Assembly (NCBI GenBank): GCA_021780215.1
Contig: JAJXZD010000184.1
Location: 1-35,332 of the forward strand
Direction of reading: 5' to 3'
Length of the DNA stretch: 35,332 nucleotides
From: Acidobacteriota bacterium
Lineage (GTDB): Bacteria > Acidobacteriota > Terriglobia > Acidiferrales > UBA7541
Every line of letters begins with the position of its first letter. Position 1 is the stretch's first letter. This document shows, in pieces, positions 4,653 through 12,034 of the stretch. The notes under the pieces are model-generated. The model had not been told where the DNA came from and made no database searches. It worked only from the letters and a program-made list of their open reading frames with translations. A program made the position numbers and the translations under genes.

Positions 4653-4747
4653 CACTCCTTCGGCCCGATCAATTCCGGGGGCATTGAAAGCCAGGCCGCG
4701 TTCGCGGGCGCTGGATGCCGCATGAACCGTGGAGAGTCAATAAGGCA

Positions 4748-5878
4748 ATGGCCAGAGCTAACCATCCGATTCGCTATCCCCTATTGGCCATCTCGCTCTT
4801 CCTGCTTGTACTGGCGCTGTGGGCGGGGCTGACGCGCCTGGGATTGGACGCATCATGGCTGCAATCGAGGCTCGTCCTCGGGCATGGCCCCTTCATGGTG
4901 TGCGGCTTCCTGGGAACATTAATCAGCCTCGAAAGGTCCGTCGCGCTGGGGCGATGGTGGGCTTATATCCCGCCGGTCTTTTCGGGCGCCGGCTCGCTGT
5001 GGCTGGCTGCAAGGCTCACTGGCGCCGCCCCGGTGTTTTTGATCGTTCTGGGGTCCGCAGGCCTCGTTGTTCTATTCGCGCACATCGTCATCCGACAGCC
5101 CGCGCTATTTACCGCAACCATGGGCCTTGGGGCCGGAGCCTGGCTGGCGGGCAATCTCTTCTGGCTCGGCGGAGTGGCCATTCCCCGGATGGTCCACTGG
5201 TGGATTGGCTTTCTAGTTCTCACGATTGTAGGCGAGCGCCTGGAGCTGAACCGTTTTCTTTCCCCATCGCGATATGTGCGGATTCTGTTCGCGGCAGCGC
5301 TGGCGCTTTTCCTGGTTGGACTGATTGGCTCATCCGTCGTTCCGCTCGATGGGAACCGCATGGCAGGACTGGGCATGGTGGGATTCGCCCTCTGGCTCGC
5401 GCGCTACGACATTGCCCGCACCACGATTCGCCGGGAGGGATTGCCGCGGTTCATTGCGGTGTCGCTGATAGCCGGGTACGTCTGGCTTGGAATCGGCGGG
5501 CTGATCTGGTTGTTTGCAACTCTTCTCGAAAAGGCGGGGAGCCCTGTCTATCTGGTGTATGACGCTTCGCTGCACAGCATCTTTCTCGGCTTTGTCTTCT
5601 CGATGATCTTCGCGCATGCGCCGATCGTGTTTCCCGCGGTGACGGGAAGGCCACTGACCTTCCGCCGCTCGTTTTACGCGCACGTCTTGCTGCTGCAATT
5701 GTCGCTGGCGGCGAGAGTGGCGGGCGATCTGGCGGGTTCTCTCCCCGTATATCGCTGGGCAGGTGCCGCGAACGTGGCGGCGGTGCTGCTGTTCTTCTGC
5801 AATACTCTCCACGGCGTCCTTGCCGGCCGGCGCGCCGAGAAAGCATCCTTGGCGCACATGGCGCAAGCGCCAAAGTAG
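4748..5878 (+). CDS. Polytopic membrane protein, NnrS-like
   Basis: This is a protein of about 376 residues with roughly ten to twelve hydrophobic helices. It resembles NnrS, a haem/copper membrane protein linked to nitric-oxide stress. An early VLGHGPFMVCGFLGTLI helix matches the NnrS pattern of a histidine followed by M-x2-GF. A late DASLHSIFLGFVFSMIFAH helix, then TGRPL and an AHVLLLQLSLAARV helix, follow the C-terminal NnrS order. Length also fits (NnrS is about 400 residues). The ATG at 4748 (GGAGAG 11 bp upstream) is preferred over ATG 4715. The similarity is distant, so another haem-copper-like membrane family is possible. The genes before it (DUF59, DUF2249) are common NnrS neighbours, which raises confidence. 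Confidence 0.6.
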   Translation: MARANHPIRYPLLAISLFLLVLALWAGLTRLGLDASWLQSRLVLGHGPFMVCGFLGTLISLERSVALGRWWAYIPPVFSGAGSLWLAARLTGAAPVFLIVLGSAGLVVLFAHIVIRQPALFTATMGLGAGAWLAGNLFWLGGVAIPRMVHWWIGFLVLTIVGERLELNRFLSPSRYVRILFAAALALFLVGLIGSSVVPLDGNRMAGLGMVGFALWLARYDIARTTIRREGLPRFIAVSLIAGYVWLGIGGLIWLFATLLEKAGSPVYLVYDASLHSIFLGFVFSMIFAHAPIVFPAVTGRPLTFRRSFYAHVLLLQLSLAARVAGDLAGSLPVYRWAGAANVAAVLLFFCNTLHGVLAGRRAEKASLAHMAQAPK

Positions 5879-5949: not shown

Positions 5950-6199
5950 CGATTGGATTTTTGAAGCAATCGCCTCCTCATCTGATGTATCGTTGCCGTG
6001 GGCGCGTCCTCCGCGCCCGGCCCGCTGCGCCAGCGGAGCCCCCACGCCAGGGGGCCTGGGAGAAACTGCTCAGGCATGCCTGGAGACGTTTCTCCCCCAT
6101 TTCACCTCGCGTCCGGCTGAACTCTGTTCAATCGGCCGGGGTCCGCCTCCGGTGGAGGCATCCCGCTTCCCCGGAGCTTGGAAACTCAGGAGGAACCCC
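5950..6199 (+). other. Hairpin-dense leader, candidate structured RNA upstream of the 6200 gene
   Basis: The 321-bp gap before the next gene has successive stem-loops on the plus strand. Stems (arm/arm) are 5950-5955/5967-5972, 6000-6006/6012-6018, 6022-6027/6031-6036, 6038-6043/6050-6055 and 6058-6066/6088-6096. The last encloses a 12-bp palindrome (6071-6082). Further stems are 6113-6122 with 6126-6130 and 6135-6139, 6145-6150/6154-6159, and 6136-6141/6169-6174. The arms at 6135-6139 and 6136-6141 overlap, so two of these stems exclude each other. CCTCC at 6146-6150 could also pair with the ribosome site GGAGG (6189-6193). No known riboswitch class is recognised. GC-rich DNA makes chance hairpins common, so confidence is moderate. 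Confidence 0.45.
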
Positions 6200-6880
6200 A
6201 TGAAGTTTGCCGTGGCCCTTTGCGTAGCGGCAGCGTGCATCCTGCTGGCCACTCCCGCCGTTCACGCCCAGTCCAACCAACTTATCCCCGGAACCCAGGT
6301 ACGCCTCACCCTGCTGAACGGCCTGAGCAGCCAGGTCGCGCACGAAGGAGATCCCTTCACAGCCGTCGTGGCTGAGCCGGTGTTCAGCGGCAGCACCCAG
6401 ATTCTTCCCGCTGGCGCCCTCGTCCACGGACGGGTGACCGGAATTACCCGCCCCAAACTTTTCTCCATGTTTCGCGGGGGGGCTTCGATGAATCTGATCT
6501 TCGATTCCATTGAAGTGGAAAGCCGCCTCTTCCCGGCCAGGATGAGCATCGTCTCCATCTCCAGCGCCGACACGGATGGCAAGCAGCGGAAGGACCTGAA
6601 AACGGTCGAGGGCGAGATGGTGCAAGAGAATCAGGACGTGAAGAGCGACATCGTTGATGTCGGGGTCGGCACCGCTGCGGGCTCAACGGCCGGGTTGGTC
6701 TTCAGCCGTCTCCTCCGCGGCACGATGATCGGGCTGGTGGGCAGCGGCGCGTATATTGCGGCGAAAAAGGGCAAGGACGTTGAGCTGCCTGCCCGGACCG
6801 GCATGCTGGTGCGCATGGACTCGACCGTGTCGCTTCCGGCATCCCTGCTGCACAACGTCGCCTACGTACCGGCGCGGTAA
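6200..6880 (+). CDS. Secreted protein of unknown function, TrbI/VirB10-like beta segment
   Basis: This is a 226-residue exported protein. An N-terminal signal peptide (hydrophobic core VALCVAAACILLATPAVHA, cleavage near Ala-Gln-Ser) precedes a beta-rich segment, TQVRLTLLNGLSSQVAHEGD. This GT-x-V-x-V-L...GD-x-F pattern, followed by LPAGALVHGRVTG, is shared with many bacterial periplasmic proteins and resembles the outer strands of TrbI/VirB10, but no secretion system genes are nearby. The C-terminal half has a glycine-rich hydrophobic stretch (around residues 155-190), possibly a membrane segment. The ATG at 6200 has AGGAGG 6-7 bp upstream and is clearly the start; the open frame continues 5' to 5897 without support. 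Function unknown. Confidence 0.8.
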   Translation: MKFAVALCVAAACILLATPAVHAQSNQLIPGTQVRLTLLNGLSSQVAHEGDPFTAVVAEPVFSGSTQILPAGALVHGRVTGITRPKLFSMFRGGASMNLIFDSIEVESRLFPARMSIVSISSADTDGKQRKDLKTVEGEMVQENQDVKSDIVDVGVGTAAGSTAGLVFSRLLRGTMIGLVGSGAYIAAKKGKDVELPARTGMLVRMDSTVSLPASLLHNVAYVPAR

Positions 6881-6994: not shown

Positions 6995-8413
6995 TCAGAG
7001 GCGTTCGTTGACTGCGGGCTCGCGGCGGCCTTTTCGCTTGAGGAAGCGGTACAGACTGGTGCGGCCGATGCCGAGCATTTGCGCGGCGCGCACGCGATTG
7101 CCGTTGCACATCTCCAGAACGCGCTGGATGTGCATCTGGCGCACCTCGTCGAGCGGCACAGGCTGCCAGCTTTCTCCGGGCGCAAGAGCCCGCCGGCGGG
7201 GCCTTTGCAGGCTCTCGGGCAGGTCTCCGACGTCCAGGAAGTCAGCACTGGCGGTGATGGCCGCGCTGGAAATTGCGTTGGAGAGTTCGCGAACGTTGCC
7301 GGGCCAGTCGTGCTGTAGCAGCGCGATCTGCGCCCGGCGCGTCAGACCCTGAAATGGCTTTCCGTAAGCCGCCCCATACTTTTTCAGAAAATGCTGCACC
7401 AGGATGGGGATGTCCTCTGGCCGTTGTGAAAGGCTTGGGACCCGGATTTCGATGCTGCTCAGACGGTAGAACAGATCCTCCCGAAAACGCCCGGCCAGAA
7501 CCTCGGCACGAAGATCACGATTGGTCGCGGCAATCAGCCGCACGTCGACCTTCCGGACCTCCGGCGACCCAACCCGCTGAATCTCACGGTTTTCGATGAC
7601 ACGGAGCAGCTTGGCCTGCATTCCGAGGGACATTTCGGCGACTTCATCCAGAAAAACCGTGCCACCATTGGCGAATTCGAAGAGCCCGGGCCGTGTATCC
7701 GTCGCGCCCGTAAAAGATCCGCGGATGTGGCCGAACAATTGGCTCTCCAGCAGCGTATCCACAAGAGCCGAACAGTTGCAGATCGCAAAGCGCTCCTTTG
7801 AAACCGGGCTGAGCTGGTGCAGAGCGCGGGCCACAAGCTCCTTCCCCGCTCCTGTCGGCCCCGTAATCAGCACGTTGGCATAGTGCCGCGATACCTTCTT
7901 GACCAGGTCCAACACATCCAGCATCGCCGGACTTTTCCCCACTATTCCCTGGAACTGAAGGTTTGGGAGCAACCTCTCCTCCAGATCGCGCACCTCGAGC
8001 CGTTGCGAAAATAGCTCCGCCAGGTCGTCCATAGACTTTTCCAGGCGCTGAAAGTTCAGGGGCTTGCAAAGGTAGTCATAGGCGCCGCGCTTGATCGCAT
8101 CAATCGCAGAATCCACGGAGTAATATCCTGTCACCAGCAAGACATACGTCCCGGGGTCGCAACGCAGCGCGTTCTCAAGAAAGGCCAGGCCGTCCATGGC
8201 GGGCATCTTCACATCCGCCAGAACCACACGGCAGGTACCCAGTTGCACTTTCTTCAGGGCATCTTCAGGATTCGTCGTCCCAACGGCCGAATAGCCGTCT
8301 GCCTCCAGCCGGGCTGTGACAACCTCTACTTGATCGGGATCGTCATCGAGCACGCAGATCGAAAGATTTTTGCGAACTGCTCCGACGTCGGCCGGTTCCA
8401 CAAGCGCCCCCAT
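6995..8413 (-). CDS. NtrC-family sigma54-dependent response regulator
   Basis: This is a 472-residue transcription activator. The receiver domain (about residues 14-130) has the acidic pair in VLDDDPDQ and the phospho-acceptor Asp67 in LADVKMPAMDG. The central AAA+ domain has Walker A GPTGAGKE (185-192), the sigma54-contact loop GSFTGA (232-237, instead of GAFTGA) and Walker B GGTVFLDEVAEM (250-261). A Fis-type helix-turn-helix closes the protein (RAAQMLGIGRTSLYRFLKRK). The ATG at 8413 has AAGGG 5 bp upstream; the ATG at 8449 and TTG at 8533 are less likely starts. No sensor kinase gene is visible nearby, so the partner is unknown. The Ser in the loop is a tolerated variant in the family. Confidence 0.93.
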   Translation of the reverse strand: MGALVEPADVGAVRKNLSICVLDDDPDQVEVVTARLEADGYSAVGTTNPEDALKKVQLGTCRVVLADVKMPAMDGLAFLENALRCDPGTYVLLVTGYYSVDSAIDAIKRGAYDYLCKPLNFQRLEKSMDDLAELFSQRLEVRDLEERLLPNLQFQGIVGKSPAMLDVLDLVKKVSRHYANVLITGPTGAGKELVARALHQLSPVSKERFAICNCSALVDTLLESQLFGHIRGSFTGATDTRPGLFEFANGGTVFLDEVAEMSLGMQAKLLRVIENREIQRVGSPEVRKVDVRLIAATNRDLRAEVLAGRFREDLFYRLSSIEIRVPSLSQRPEDIPILVQHFLKKYGAAYGKPFQGLTRRAQIALLQHDWPGNVRELSNAISSAAITASADFLDVGDLPESLQRPRRRALAPGESWQPVPLDEVRQMHIQRVLEMCNGNRVRAAQMLGIGRTSLYRFLKRKGRREPAVNERL

Positions 8414-8694
8414 CGAAACCCTTGCAGGCACGACGCTTGCCAGAGACATTGCGAATTTCGTAACGCTAATAATCCAGCCACGAACTACGTCATTCGCCCT
8501 TAACACTTCTGATTTGTGTGTGTTGGCGTGCAAACCAGTGAGCAGTCGAACAGTTGCGGAGAATGTTCGCGCGATCGCTTGCCATCATGTGAAACGCAGC
8601 CCGTTCCAACCTGGAACCGCAGTCTTAAAGCGGAACAGTTCGTCCCGTTGCCTCGTCGAACTATTCCAGGCCGCCTGGGCCATCAGCATGAAGG
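8414..8694. other. Intergenic region upstream of the response regulator
   Basis: This 281-bp stretch holds no gene I can support. It contains a short perfect inverted repeat, GTTCCA-acc-TGGAAC (near 8608-8622). On the minus strand I looked for a sigma54 promoter (TGGCAC-N5-TTGC) for the regulator and found no convincing match. The promoter must lie here, but its elements are not obvious. Confidence 0.4.
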
Positions 8695-10128: not shown

Positions 10129-10234
<106 letters not shown>

Positions 10235-10285
10235 CTCATCCTGGCATCGGATTGCCGGGCAGGTGGCGGGCGCACGGTTCACTCC

Positions 10286-12034
10286 ATGACCTACAAAGTC
10301 ATCGCGCGGAAATATCGCCCGCAGACCTTTGCGGAAATCGTCGGGCAGCAGCACGTCACCCGAACTCTTGCCAACGCCATCACCTCGAACCGTGTCGCCC
10401 ATGCCTACATCTTTTCGGGAGTCCGCGGCGTGGGCAAAACGACTGCCGCGCGCATCCTGGCCAAGGCCCTGAACTGCGCCAGCGGGCCCACCGCCACTCC
10501 TGACAACACCTGCGATTCCTGCAGGGAGATTTCGGCCGGCTCTTCGCTGGACGTTCTCGAAATTGACGCGGCCTCGAATCGCGGCATTGACCAGATCCGC
10601 GAATTGCGCGAGATGGTCCGCTACGCGCCCGCCTCCAGCCGCTACAAAGTGGTCATCCTCGACGAAGCGCACCAGTTGACCGATGAGGCGTCGAACGCCC
10701 TGCTGAAAACACTCGAGGAGCCTCCGGAGCGGGTCGTCTTCATTCTGGCCACCACCCGCGCCGAGGACCTGGTAGAGACCATCAAGTCTCGCGCACAGCT
10801 CTTTCAATTTCGCGCCCTCACGTTCCAGGAAATCGCCGGGGAAATCGAACGCATCGCCAATGCCGAGCAACTCACGATTGAGCCCGGCGCCGTAGCAGTG
10901 CTCGCGCGGGCCGCCGAAGGCAGCCTGCGCGACGGCCTCTCCCTGCTCGAACAAGCCATCGCCTATGGCGGAGAGACCATCACGGACGCGCAGGTGCGCG
11001 AACTGCTGGGCGTCGTCGCCGAAAGCGTGCTGGACGAACTGGTGGCCGCCGTGGAGGAGCAGTCTGCTGAACGCGCCCTGGCGCTGGTTCACAAGCTCAT
11101 CGGCGATGGACAGAATCTCCAGCATTTCTGCCGGGAGGCCATTCGCCATTTTCGGAACCTGCTCGTGGTCCGGGTATGCAATGCGGATTCCGAACTGGTG
11201 GCCGCTCCCGCAGAGGAGCGCCCGCGCCTGGCCGGGCAGGCTGCGCGGTTCAGCGAAGAGGATCTGACGCGCTTTTTTCACATCCTCCTCGCGACGGACG
11301 ATGACCTCCGGCGCAAACCGGATCCGCGCCTTCATCTCGAACTTGGCCTGCTGAAGCTCATCAACGCGCGGCGGCTTGCGCCGCTGGAGGAGGCGCTCGC
11401 GCAACTGCGCGGTGAGACTCGGCGGCCTGCCGCCGCGGGAAATCAGGCTGCGCCGCCATCCGTGCCGGTCCGCACCGCCTCTCCGCCGCCTTTCAGCACA
11501 TCCTCGACGGGAGCCGCCGTGCGCATGGCGCCGGCCAGCGAACCGGCACCATCTGCCTCCGCGACGTCTGCGCCTCCTGCGCCTTCTTCGCTCCCGTCAA
11601 CGGATCGCTCGCTCCCCGCATCGGCGCCGCACACCCTCGCACGCGCCGCCGAGGCCCATTCGACGGGCGCGGCCTCGGCGCAAGTGGATGCAATCAAGTC
11701 CGCCATCCGCGGGCAGAAGTTTTTGTGGTCCATGGTCGAGCGCGCGACGCGCTGGGAGATGGATGCGAACGAATTGCGGCTCTTTTTCCCGAGCGACAGC
11801 CGTACGCTTGCCGAAATGCTGCAAGCGCGCGACCCAATGGAACGTTTGCGCACAGTCCTGCAACAAGTGACCGGCATGCCTCTCCGCGTCTGTGTTAAAC
11901 TGGAGTCGGCTCGCGGGGGAAATGCGCGCGGGCCGGAGTTGCGGGCCAGGTTCGAGGAAGATCCGATCGTTCGGGCGATGCTCGAAAAGTTCGGCGGCCA
12001 GATTTCCGAGATCAAGCGCCCCGGCGAGGAATAG
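10286..12034 (+). CDS. dnaX: DNA polymerase III subunit gamma/tau
   Basis: This 582-residue protein is the clamp-loader ATPase. It has Walker A GVRGVGKT (residues 45-52), DEAH (126-129) and the arginine-finger KSRA region (about 167-170). A Pro/Ala/Ser-rich linker of about 90 residues (around 395-485) precedes a C-terminal tau-type domain. The zinc site is altered: where E. coli has Cys64, Cys73, Cys76 and Cys79, this protein has Cys64, Asp73 (GAC codon), Cys76 and Cys79 in TATPDNTCDSCREI. Asp may still ligate zinc, or the site may be weak. The ATG at 10286 starts the conserved TYKVIARKYRP segment; an upstream in-frame start at 10208 is inside SRP RNA. ybaB follows after 3 bp. Confidence 0.97.
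   Translation: MTYKVIARKYRPQTFAEIVGQQHVTRTLANAITSNRVAHAYIFSGVRGVGKTTAARILAKALNCASGPTATPDNTCDSCREISAGSSLDVLEIDAASNRGIDQIRELREMVRYAPASSRYKVVILDEAHQLTDEASNALLKTLEEPPERVVFILATTRAEDLVETIKSRAQLFQFRALTFQEIAGEIERIANAEQLTIEPGAVAVLARAAEGSLRDGLSLLEQAIAYGGETITDAQVRELLGVVAESVLDELVAAVEEQSAERALALVHKLIGDGQNLQHFCREAIRHFRNLLVVRVCNADSELVAAPAEERPRLAGQAARFSEEDLTRFFHILLATDDDLRRKPDPRLHLELGLLKLINARRLAPLEEALAQLRGETRRPAAAGNQAAPPSVPVRTASPPPFSTSSTGAAVRMAPASEPAPSASATSAPPAPSSLPSTDRSLPASAPHTLARAAEAHSTGAASAQVDAIKSAIRGQKFLWSMVERATRWEMDANELRLFFPSDSRTLAEMLQARDPMERLRTVLQQVTGMPLRVCVKLESARGGNARGPELRARFEEDPIVRAMLEKFGGQISEIKRPGEE

Follow-up and report, generated by a model that had tools for sequence, protein, structure and literature searches.

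The window analysed here is a 35,332-nt contig of an Acidobacteriota genome assembly, in which a hairpin-dense leader precedes a gene for an exported protein (Table 1). The encoded protein matched no Pfam or NCBIfam family. Of the family's 89 genomes, 54 encode a close orthologue (39–76% identity), as does a single genome from a neighbouring family (G061); the named relatives are Candidatus Acidiferrales or Acidobacteria metagenome assemblies. An AlphaFold2 model built from 38 orthologues—a weak one, with a mean pLDDT of 67—resembles the VirB10, ComB10 and CagY subunits of type IV secretion systems, which make up its 20 best PDB matches (probability 1.00 each, E-values of ~1e-3 to 1e-2, low TM-scores). 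Given the weak model, the modest E-values and the low TM-scores, we treat the VirB10-like fold as a lead, not a proof.

The upstream gene (4715–5878, plus strand) encodes a weakly NnrS-like protein (E 0.004, below the Pfam cut-off); NnrS is a membrane protein associated with nitric oxide stress. A gene for a sigma-54-dependent response regulator of the NtrC type (6995–8533, minus strand) lies convergent to the 6200 gene. The bacterial small SRP RNA (RF00169; 10134–10232, plus strand) lies directly upstream of dnaX (10208–12034), and in many relatives the SRP RNA is found within ~1.5 kb of the VirB10-like gene.

Table 1. Features of the leader and of the gene that it precedes.
Feature	Position	Strand	Description
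-10 promoter-like box	5988–5993	+	TATCGT; start of transcription predicted at ~6000
P1 hairpin	6000–6018	+	GGGCGC (6000–6005)/GCGCCC (6013–6018); paired in 41–44 of 45 leaders per position
Anti-Shine-Dalgarno, P1 loop	6007–6012	+	UCCUCC; CCTCC in all leaders but two (CCTCG)
P2 hairpin	6022–6036	+	CCGC/GCGG; conserved loop (U/G/A/C)GCGCCA at 6026–6032
P3 hairpin	6038–6055	+	GCCCCC/GGGGGC; loop ACGCCA at 6044–6049, consensus ACGNNAC
P4 hairpin	6058–6096	+	9-bp hairpin of the sequence-only reading; only in one subgroup of the genus
P5 hairpin	6112–6140	+	TCCGGCTGA/TCGGCCGGG; subgroup only; includes stem 6113–6117/6135–6139
P6 hairpin	6154–6170	+	GGAGGC/GCTTCC; subgroup only; excludes stem 6136–6141/6169–6174
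Shine-Dalgarno	6188–6194	+	AGGAGGA; putative partner of 6007–6012
Putatively regulated gene	6200–6880	+	226-aa exported protein with signal peptide; possible VirB10/ComB10-like fold

An earlier annotation made from the letters of the window—the sequence-only reading—had described the leader as a candidate riboregulator that opens and closes the ribosome site by means of mutually exclusive stems. Its observations were borne out and its interpretation in part. All the complementarities that it named are present: the arms GGGAGAAAC (6058–6066) and GTTTCTCCC (6088–6096) of a 9-bp stem, the palindrome CAGGCATGCCTG (6071–6082), CCGGC/GCCGG (6113–6117/6135–6139), CCGGGG/CCCCGG (6136–6141/6169–6174), and CCTCC (6146–6150) with GGAGG (6189–6193). 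A second CCTCC, which it had not listed, lies at 6008–6012. The 216 nt from 6000 to 6215 fold at −112.4 kcal/mol, whereas 200 dinucleotide shuffles of them gave −93.2 ± 5.2 kcal/mol (z −3.71, 0/200). The window leader thus stands out from its shuffled controls, but not every orthologue does: z ranged from −0.2 to −4.6 among orthologous leaders (L012, −0.18; L019, −0.66). Because of this wide variation, folding energy alone is not decisive, and the case for a real RNA rests on conservation and covariation across genomes.

Alignment of orthologous leaders placed the conserved part in the first 56 nt (6000–6055), which form the three predicted hairpins P1, P2 and P3. The folded shape is kept in more than 50 related genomes, and the three hairpins are retained in the leaders of orthologues down to 39–55% protein identity. 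The P1 arms read GGGUGC…GCACCC in most of the genus, GGAUGG…CCAUCC in genus g5 and GGGCGC…GCGCCC in the window, and the P1 loop terminates in UCCUCC; those of P3 read GCCCC…GGGGC, GCCUC…GAGGC, CCCUC…GAGGG and others, around the loop ACGNNAC. Genus g12 has a degenerate P1 and G061 has none, and the P2 loop motif GCGCCA survives even in minimal leaders (L093–L098). Genera insert extra hairpins between these elements, with spacers of 0–38 nt between P1 and P2, 1–29 nt between P2 and P3, and 1–130 nt before the ribosome site; an invariable core with variable inserts is a pattern typical of structured RNA. Judged from these alignments, the leader is a real, conserved RNA that accompanies orthologues of the 6200 gene throughout one family of Acidobacteria (Ca. 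Acidiferrales). Its core is compact (~56 nt), and short natural versions exist: L012 measures 99 nt and L028 78 nt, with minimal forms down to ~46 nt including the gene start. The smallest of these, L098 from G061, comprises 46 nt around the start codon, with CCACCUCCGCAGCGCCAACCAGGAGGC ahead of a GTG start.

We next asked how the pairs vary over 48 distinct leaders. One P1 position is G-C in 21 leaders, A-U in 20 and U-A in three, and a second is G-C in 19, C-G in 15 and A-U in three. In P3, one position alternates between C-G (31) and U-A (15), another between G-C (26), C-G (5) and U-A (5). P2 is the least variable stem (C-G 39, A-U 3 and G-C 2 at its base). For significance, we used a tree-based null modelled on R-scape, relocating substitutions along a FastTree tree in 150 simulations and scoring all column pairs by the G statistic with average-product correction. 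Proposed base pairs made up six of the eight strongest among all column pairs. The best P1 pair was reached in none of the 150 simulations (E < 1/150 over all column pairs); the next, one in P3 (E 0.09) and one in P1 (E 0.23), reach significance only on the assumption that the proposed structure holds. In the genus alignment, 97.6% of pair cells were paired, compared to 36–49% with partners slid. All these figures are to be read knowing that the P1 and P3 registers were chosen partly by complementarity, though constant within a genus. The search for compensatory changes that the sequence-only reading had called for was therefore positive: by this comparison, the P1 and P3 stems carry them. A long-range pair (12–15/179–182) that RNAalifold returned for the whole genus leader was distrusted, as MAFFT aligned the variable part poorly.

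These changes bear on the alternative that the hairpins are functionless products of GC-rich DNA. High GC does make hairpins common, and some leaders (L012, L019) are no more stable than shuffles, but more than 50 leaders show conservation and compensatory changes, which make this account of the leader very improbable. For P1–P3 the covariation refutes it; for the stem 6136–6141/6169–6174 it still holds.

That stem is half of the switch originally proposed, and the downstream part of the leader fared unevenly. The 9-bp hairpin (P4) is real but lineage-specific: at the same place, subgroup relatives carry stems of unrelated sequence, such as CGAAGTG/CGCTTCG and TCCGGAG/TTCCGGA. The stem 6113–6117/6135–6139 falls within P5, which is kept in subgroup relatives with changed sequences (CTGAGACC/GGTCTCAG, or CUGAGACC/GGUCUCAG as RNA; GCGAAAG/CTTTTGC; TGCAAAGG/CCTTTGCG). 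P6 likewise recurs as GGAAAC/GTTTCC, GCGGACGC/GCGTCCGC and GCAGAG/CTCTGC. By contrast, the stem 6136–6141/6169–6174 and the CCTCC at 6146–6150 are confined to the window and have no counterpart in the aligned relatives, which keep P5 and fold a separate P6 there. The mutually exclusive pair is for this reason probably a coincidence of GC-rich sequence, and this particular switch is not conserved. What stands is the core of the riboregulator idea, an unrecognised RNA leader that opens or closes the ribosome site; it is supported by the conserved structure with its compensatory changes, the lack of an Rfam match and a conserved anti-Shine-Dalgarno, which lies at 6007–6012 and not at 6146–6150.

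The 5' end of the RNA can be predicted from a promoter-like box. In 44 of 45 leaders, a TAnnnT hexamer starts 12–14 nt ahead of P1 (~5% expected by chance, as estimated from base frequencies), and from this fixed distance transcription probably starts at ~6000, the first base of P1. A start downstream of 6174, a scenario that the sequence-only reading had raised against its own switch, is disfavoured, as the predicted start lies upstream. A recurring element, (T)GGAAC or GGAAAC, is found at a nearly unchanging distance of −54 to −59 from P1 (in L012–L021, L025, L026 and others), ~40–45 nt upstream of the −10 box, and is possibly a regulator binding site.

A hairpin at the predicted 5' end is also what one would expect of a protective structure or a constitutive brake—a stability element or an RNA thermometer—in which the stem-loops shield the 5' end of the mRNA, and pairing of UCCUCC lowers translation or gates it by heat, with no specific signal. 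The leaders are GC-rich and very stable, in keeping with this idea. However, neither protection nor melting needs the strict loops GCGCCA and ACGNNAC, and stems of well over 70% GC would presumably not melt in the physiological range, so that we regard it as distinctly improbable.

The P1 loop can be linked to the ribosome site. Its UCCUCC (6007–6012) is complementary to GGAGGA (6189–6194) of the ribosome site, and in 54 of 56 leaders at least five contiguous pairs can form from the last C (at least six in 48 of 56). In the two leaders with CCUCG, UUCCUC could still pair with GAGGAA. CCUCC lies 0–1 nt from the 3' arm of P1 and 2–4 nt (rarely 5) from its 5' arm. Such spacing is what coaxial H-type pseudoknots need, and the placement fits one in which P1 would stack on the helix between anti-Shine-Dalgarno and Shine-Dalgarno. 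The structure could thus reach the ribosome site, as it is predicted to do in minimal leaders: CCUCC and GGAGG are paired in the nested minimum-energy fold of three of them (L027, L028 and L098, the last from the other family), and L098 retains little besides CCUCC, GCAGCGCCA and the ribosome site. The helix itself is nearly invariant, as expected for any Shine-Dalgarno, and no covariation above chance was detected in it (permutation p 0.125); in one leader (L014), both sides have changed together (AACCUCC with GGAGGUU). Since the helix lacks covariation above chance, sequestration of the Shine-Dalgarno by the P1 loop is our best inference rather than a demonstrated fact.

To assess specificity, we searched genomes with a covariance model of P1–P3. 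It returned one confident copy per genome, always at the VirB10-like gene, with a single exception: G031 has extra copies on contigs C205, C24 and C223 at degraded copies of the same gene. At least two of these extra leaders adjoin truncated or frameshifted gene copies, that is, degraded duplicates retaining the RNA. Across 399 genomes of the class, the motif occurred only in this family, with no confident match outside the gene family, and it was absent from distant order-level relatives (f3, L117–L119). Of the weaker matches of the R1 model (G011, G016, G037, G064, G092, G000:C1, G000:C207 and others), those inspected lacked the CCTCC/GCGCCA arrangement or lay inside coding sequence and were dismissed as chance. 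A REP-like repeat or mobile palindrome was ruled out, as the leader occurs once in the window's genome. A leader peptide or uORF attenuator was likewise rejected: the P1–P2 spacer of 0, 2 or 3 nt within the genus breaks the frame, and the GTG within P1 is lost in the window. Rfam 15, searched at gathering and permissive thresholds with the window and 26 related loci, gave no credible match for the leader—only the SRP RNA and tRNAs reached cut-offs, and sub-threshold matches were at chance level. Judged by Rfam and by the papers searched, the leader is very probably undescribed. As the motif is found beside a single gene, its genomic context does not point to any ligand.

The genomes compared thus show a conserved leader with covarying stems that is complementary to the ribosome site, follows a promoter-like box and is found at this gene alone, and our best reading is a new orphan, riboswitch-like translational control leader. 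We put a probability of about 0.6 on a cis-acting RNA that would control translation of the exported, VirB10-like protein through a pseudoknot on the ribosome site and in response to a signal. Transcription would start at P1, making it the 5' end of the mRNA, and the loop-borne UCCUCC, abutting the 3' arm of P1, would form the second helix of an H-type pseudoknot by pairing with the ribosome site. P2 and P3 would sit in the connecting segment; having strictly kept loops, they are the natural candidates for a sensor. Formation of the pseudoknot would shut the ribosome site, and the pseudoknot would be stabilised or disrupted by a signal (small molecule, protein or small RNA) that the P2/P3 loops read. 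Pseudoknot formation, the translational off-state, and the existence and nature of the signal are what we infer here. A bolder version, in which the leader represents a new Acidobacteria riboswitch class that forms an H-type pseudoknot at the ribosome site, uses P2 and P3 in the connecting loop as its sensor hairpins and controls an envelope protein of VirB10-like fold, is tentative and falls somewhat short of even odds.

The same conserved, single-stranded loops could instead be where a trans-acting small RNA or an RNA-binding protein docks, with the RNA sensing no ligand and the anti-Shine-Dalgarno loop merely setting a low basal level of translation. Consistent with this, the minimal leaders L093–L098 keep GCGCCA when P1 and the loop of P3 have gone, and service to a single gene is more usual for a target site than for a riboswitch class. 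Three hairpins with conserved stems nevertheless exceed the needs of a simple antisense target, and we hold a docking site to be unlikely, if worth keeping in mind.

Among known systems, the proposed pseudoknot-controlled leader comes closest in mechanism to the expression platform of the preQ1-III riboswitch and also resembles preQ1-II, by analogy and as a member of neither. In preQ1-III (RF02680), the loop of stem-loop P4 carries an anti-Shine-Dalgarno that docks on the downstream ribosome site (helix P5) in a nested H-type pseudoknot (PMC11625349). Here, too, complementarity indicates that a loop-borne anti-Shine-Dalgarno can pair with the downstream ribosome site. The leader differs in that its anti-Shine-Dalgarno hairpin comes first, at the 5' end, and is separated from the Shine-Dalgarno by two conserved hairpins; it also has no preQ1 aptamer, queuosine gene or Rfam match. 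In preQ1-II (RF01054), a translational riboswitch confined to Bacillota, the entire Shine-Dalgarno is engaged by an upstream anti-Shine-Dalgarno in the pseudoknot helix, and a hairpin occupies the connecting loop (PMC11625349). The putative pseudoknot of the leader shares the upstream anti-Shine-Dalgarno and the hairpins in the connecting segment, but sequence, conserved-loop topology and gene differ, and Rfam gave no match. Neither RF01054 nor RF02680 matched the window even at E up to 5, nor the other leaders, and we found no association with queuosine biosynthesis or transport genes, the leader always lying upstream of the VirB10-like gene.

With riboswitches in general, the leader shares a conserved, structured 5' leader with covariation. 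Two structured RNAs of Acidobacteria, Acido-1 (RF01686) and Acido-Lenti-1 (RF01687), also came from comparative genomics and are listed as not cis-regulatory (PMC2864571). The present leader is, like them, a structured Acidobacteria RNA found by comparing genomes. The NAD+-I riboswitch occurs in Acidobacteria as well. Its tandem aptamer lies upstream of nadA. A hairpin region of that riboswitch takes in the ribosome site (PMC7708056). In Rfam 15, none of these three families matched the window or the other leaders, and the leader has no link to NAD genes.

In uncultured Acidobacteria, a group abundant in soil, the repertoire of structured regulatory RNAs is poorly mapped. The mechanism proposed for this leader is clear and testable, and its trigger, once found, would provide an initial hint at the function of a conserved envelope protein that belongs to no Pfam or NCBIfam family.
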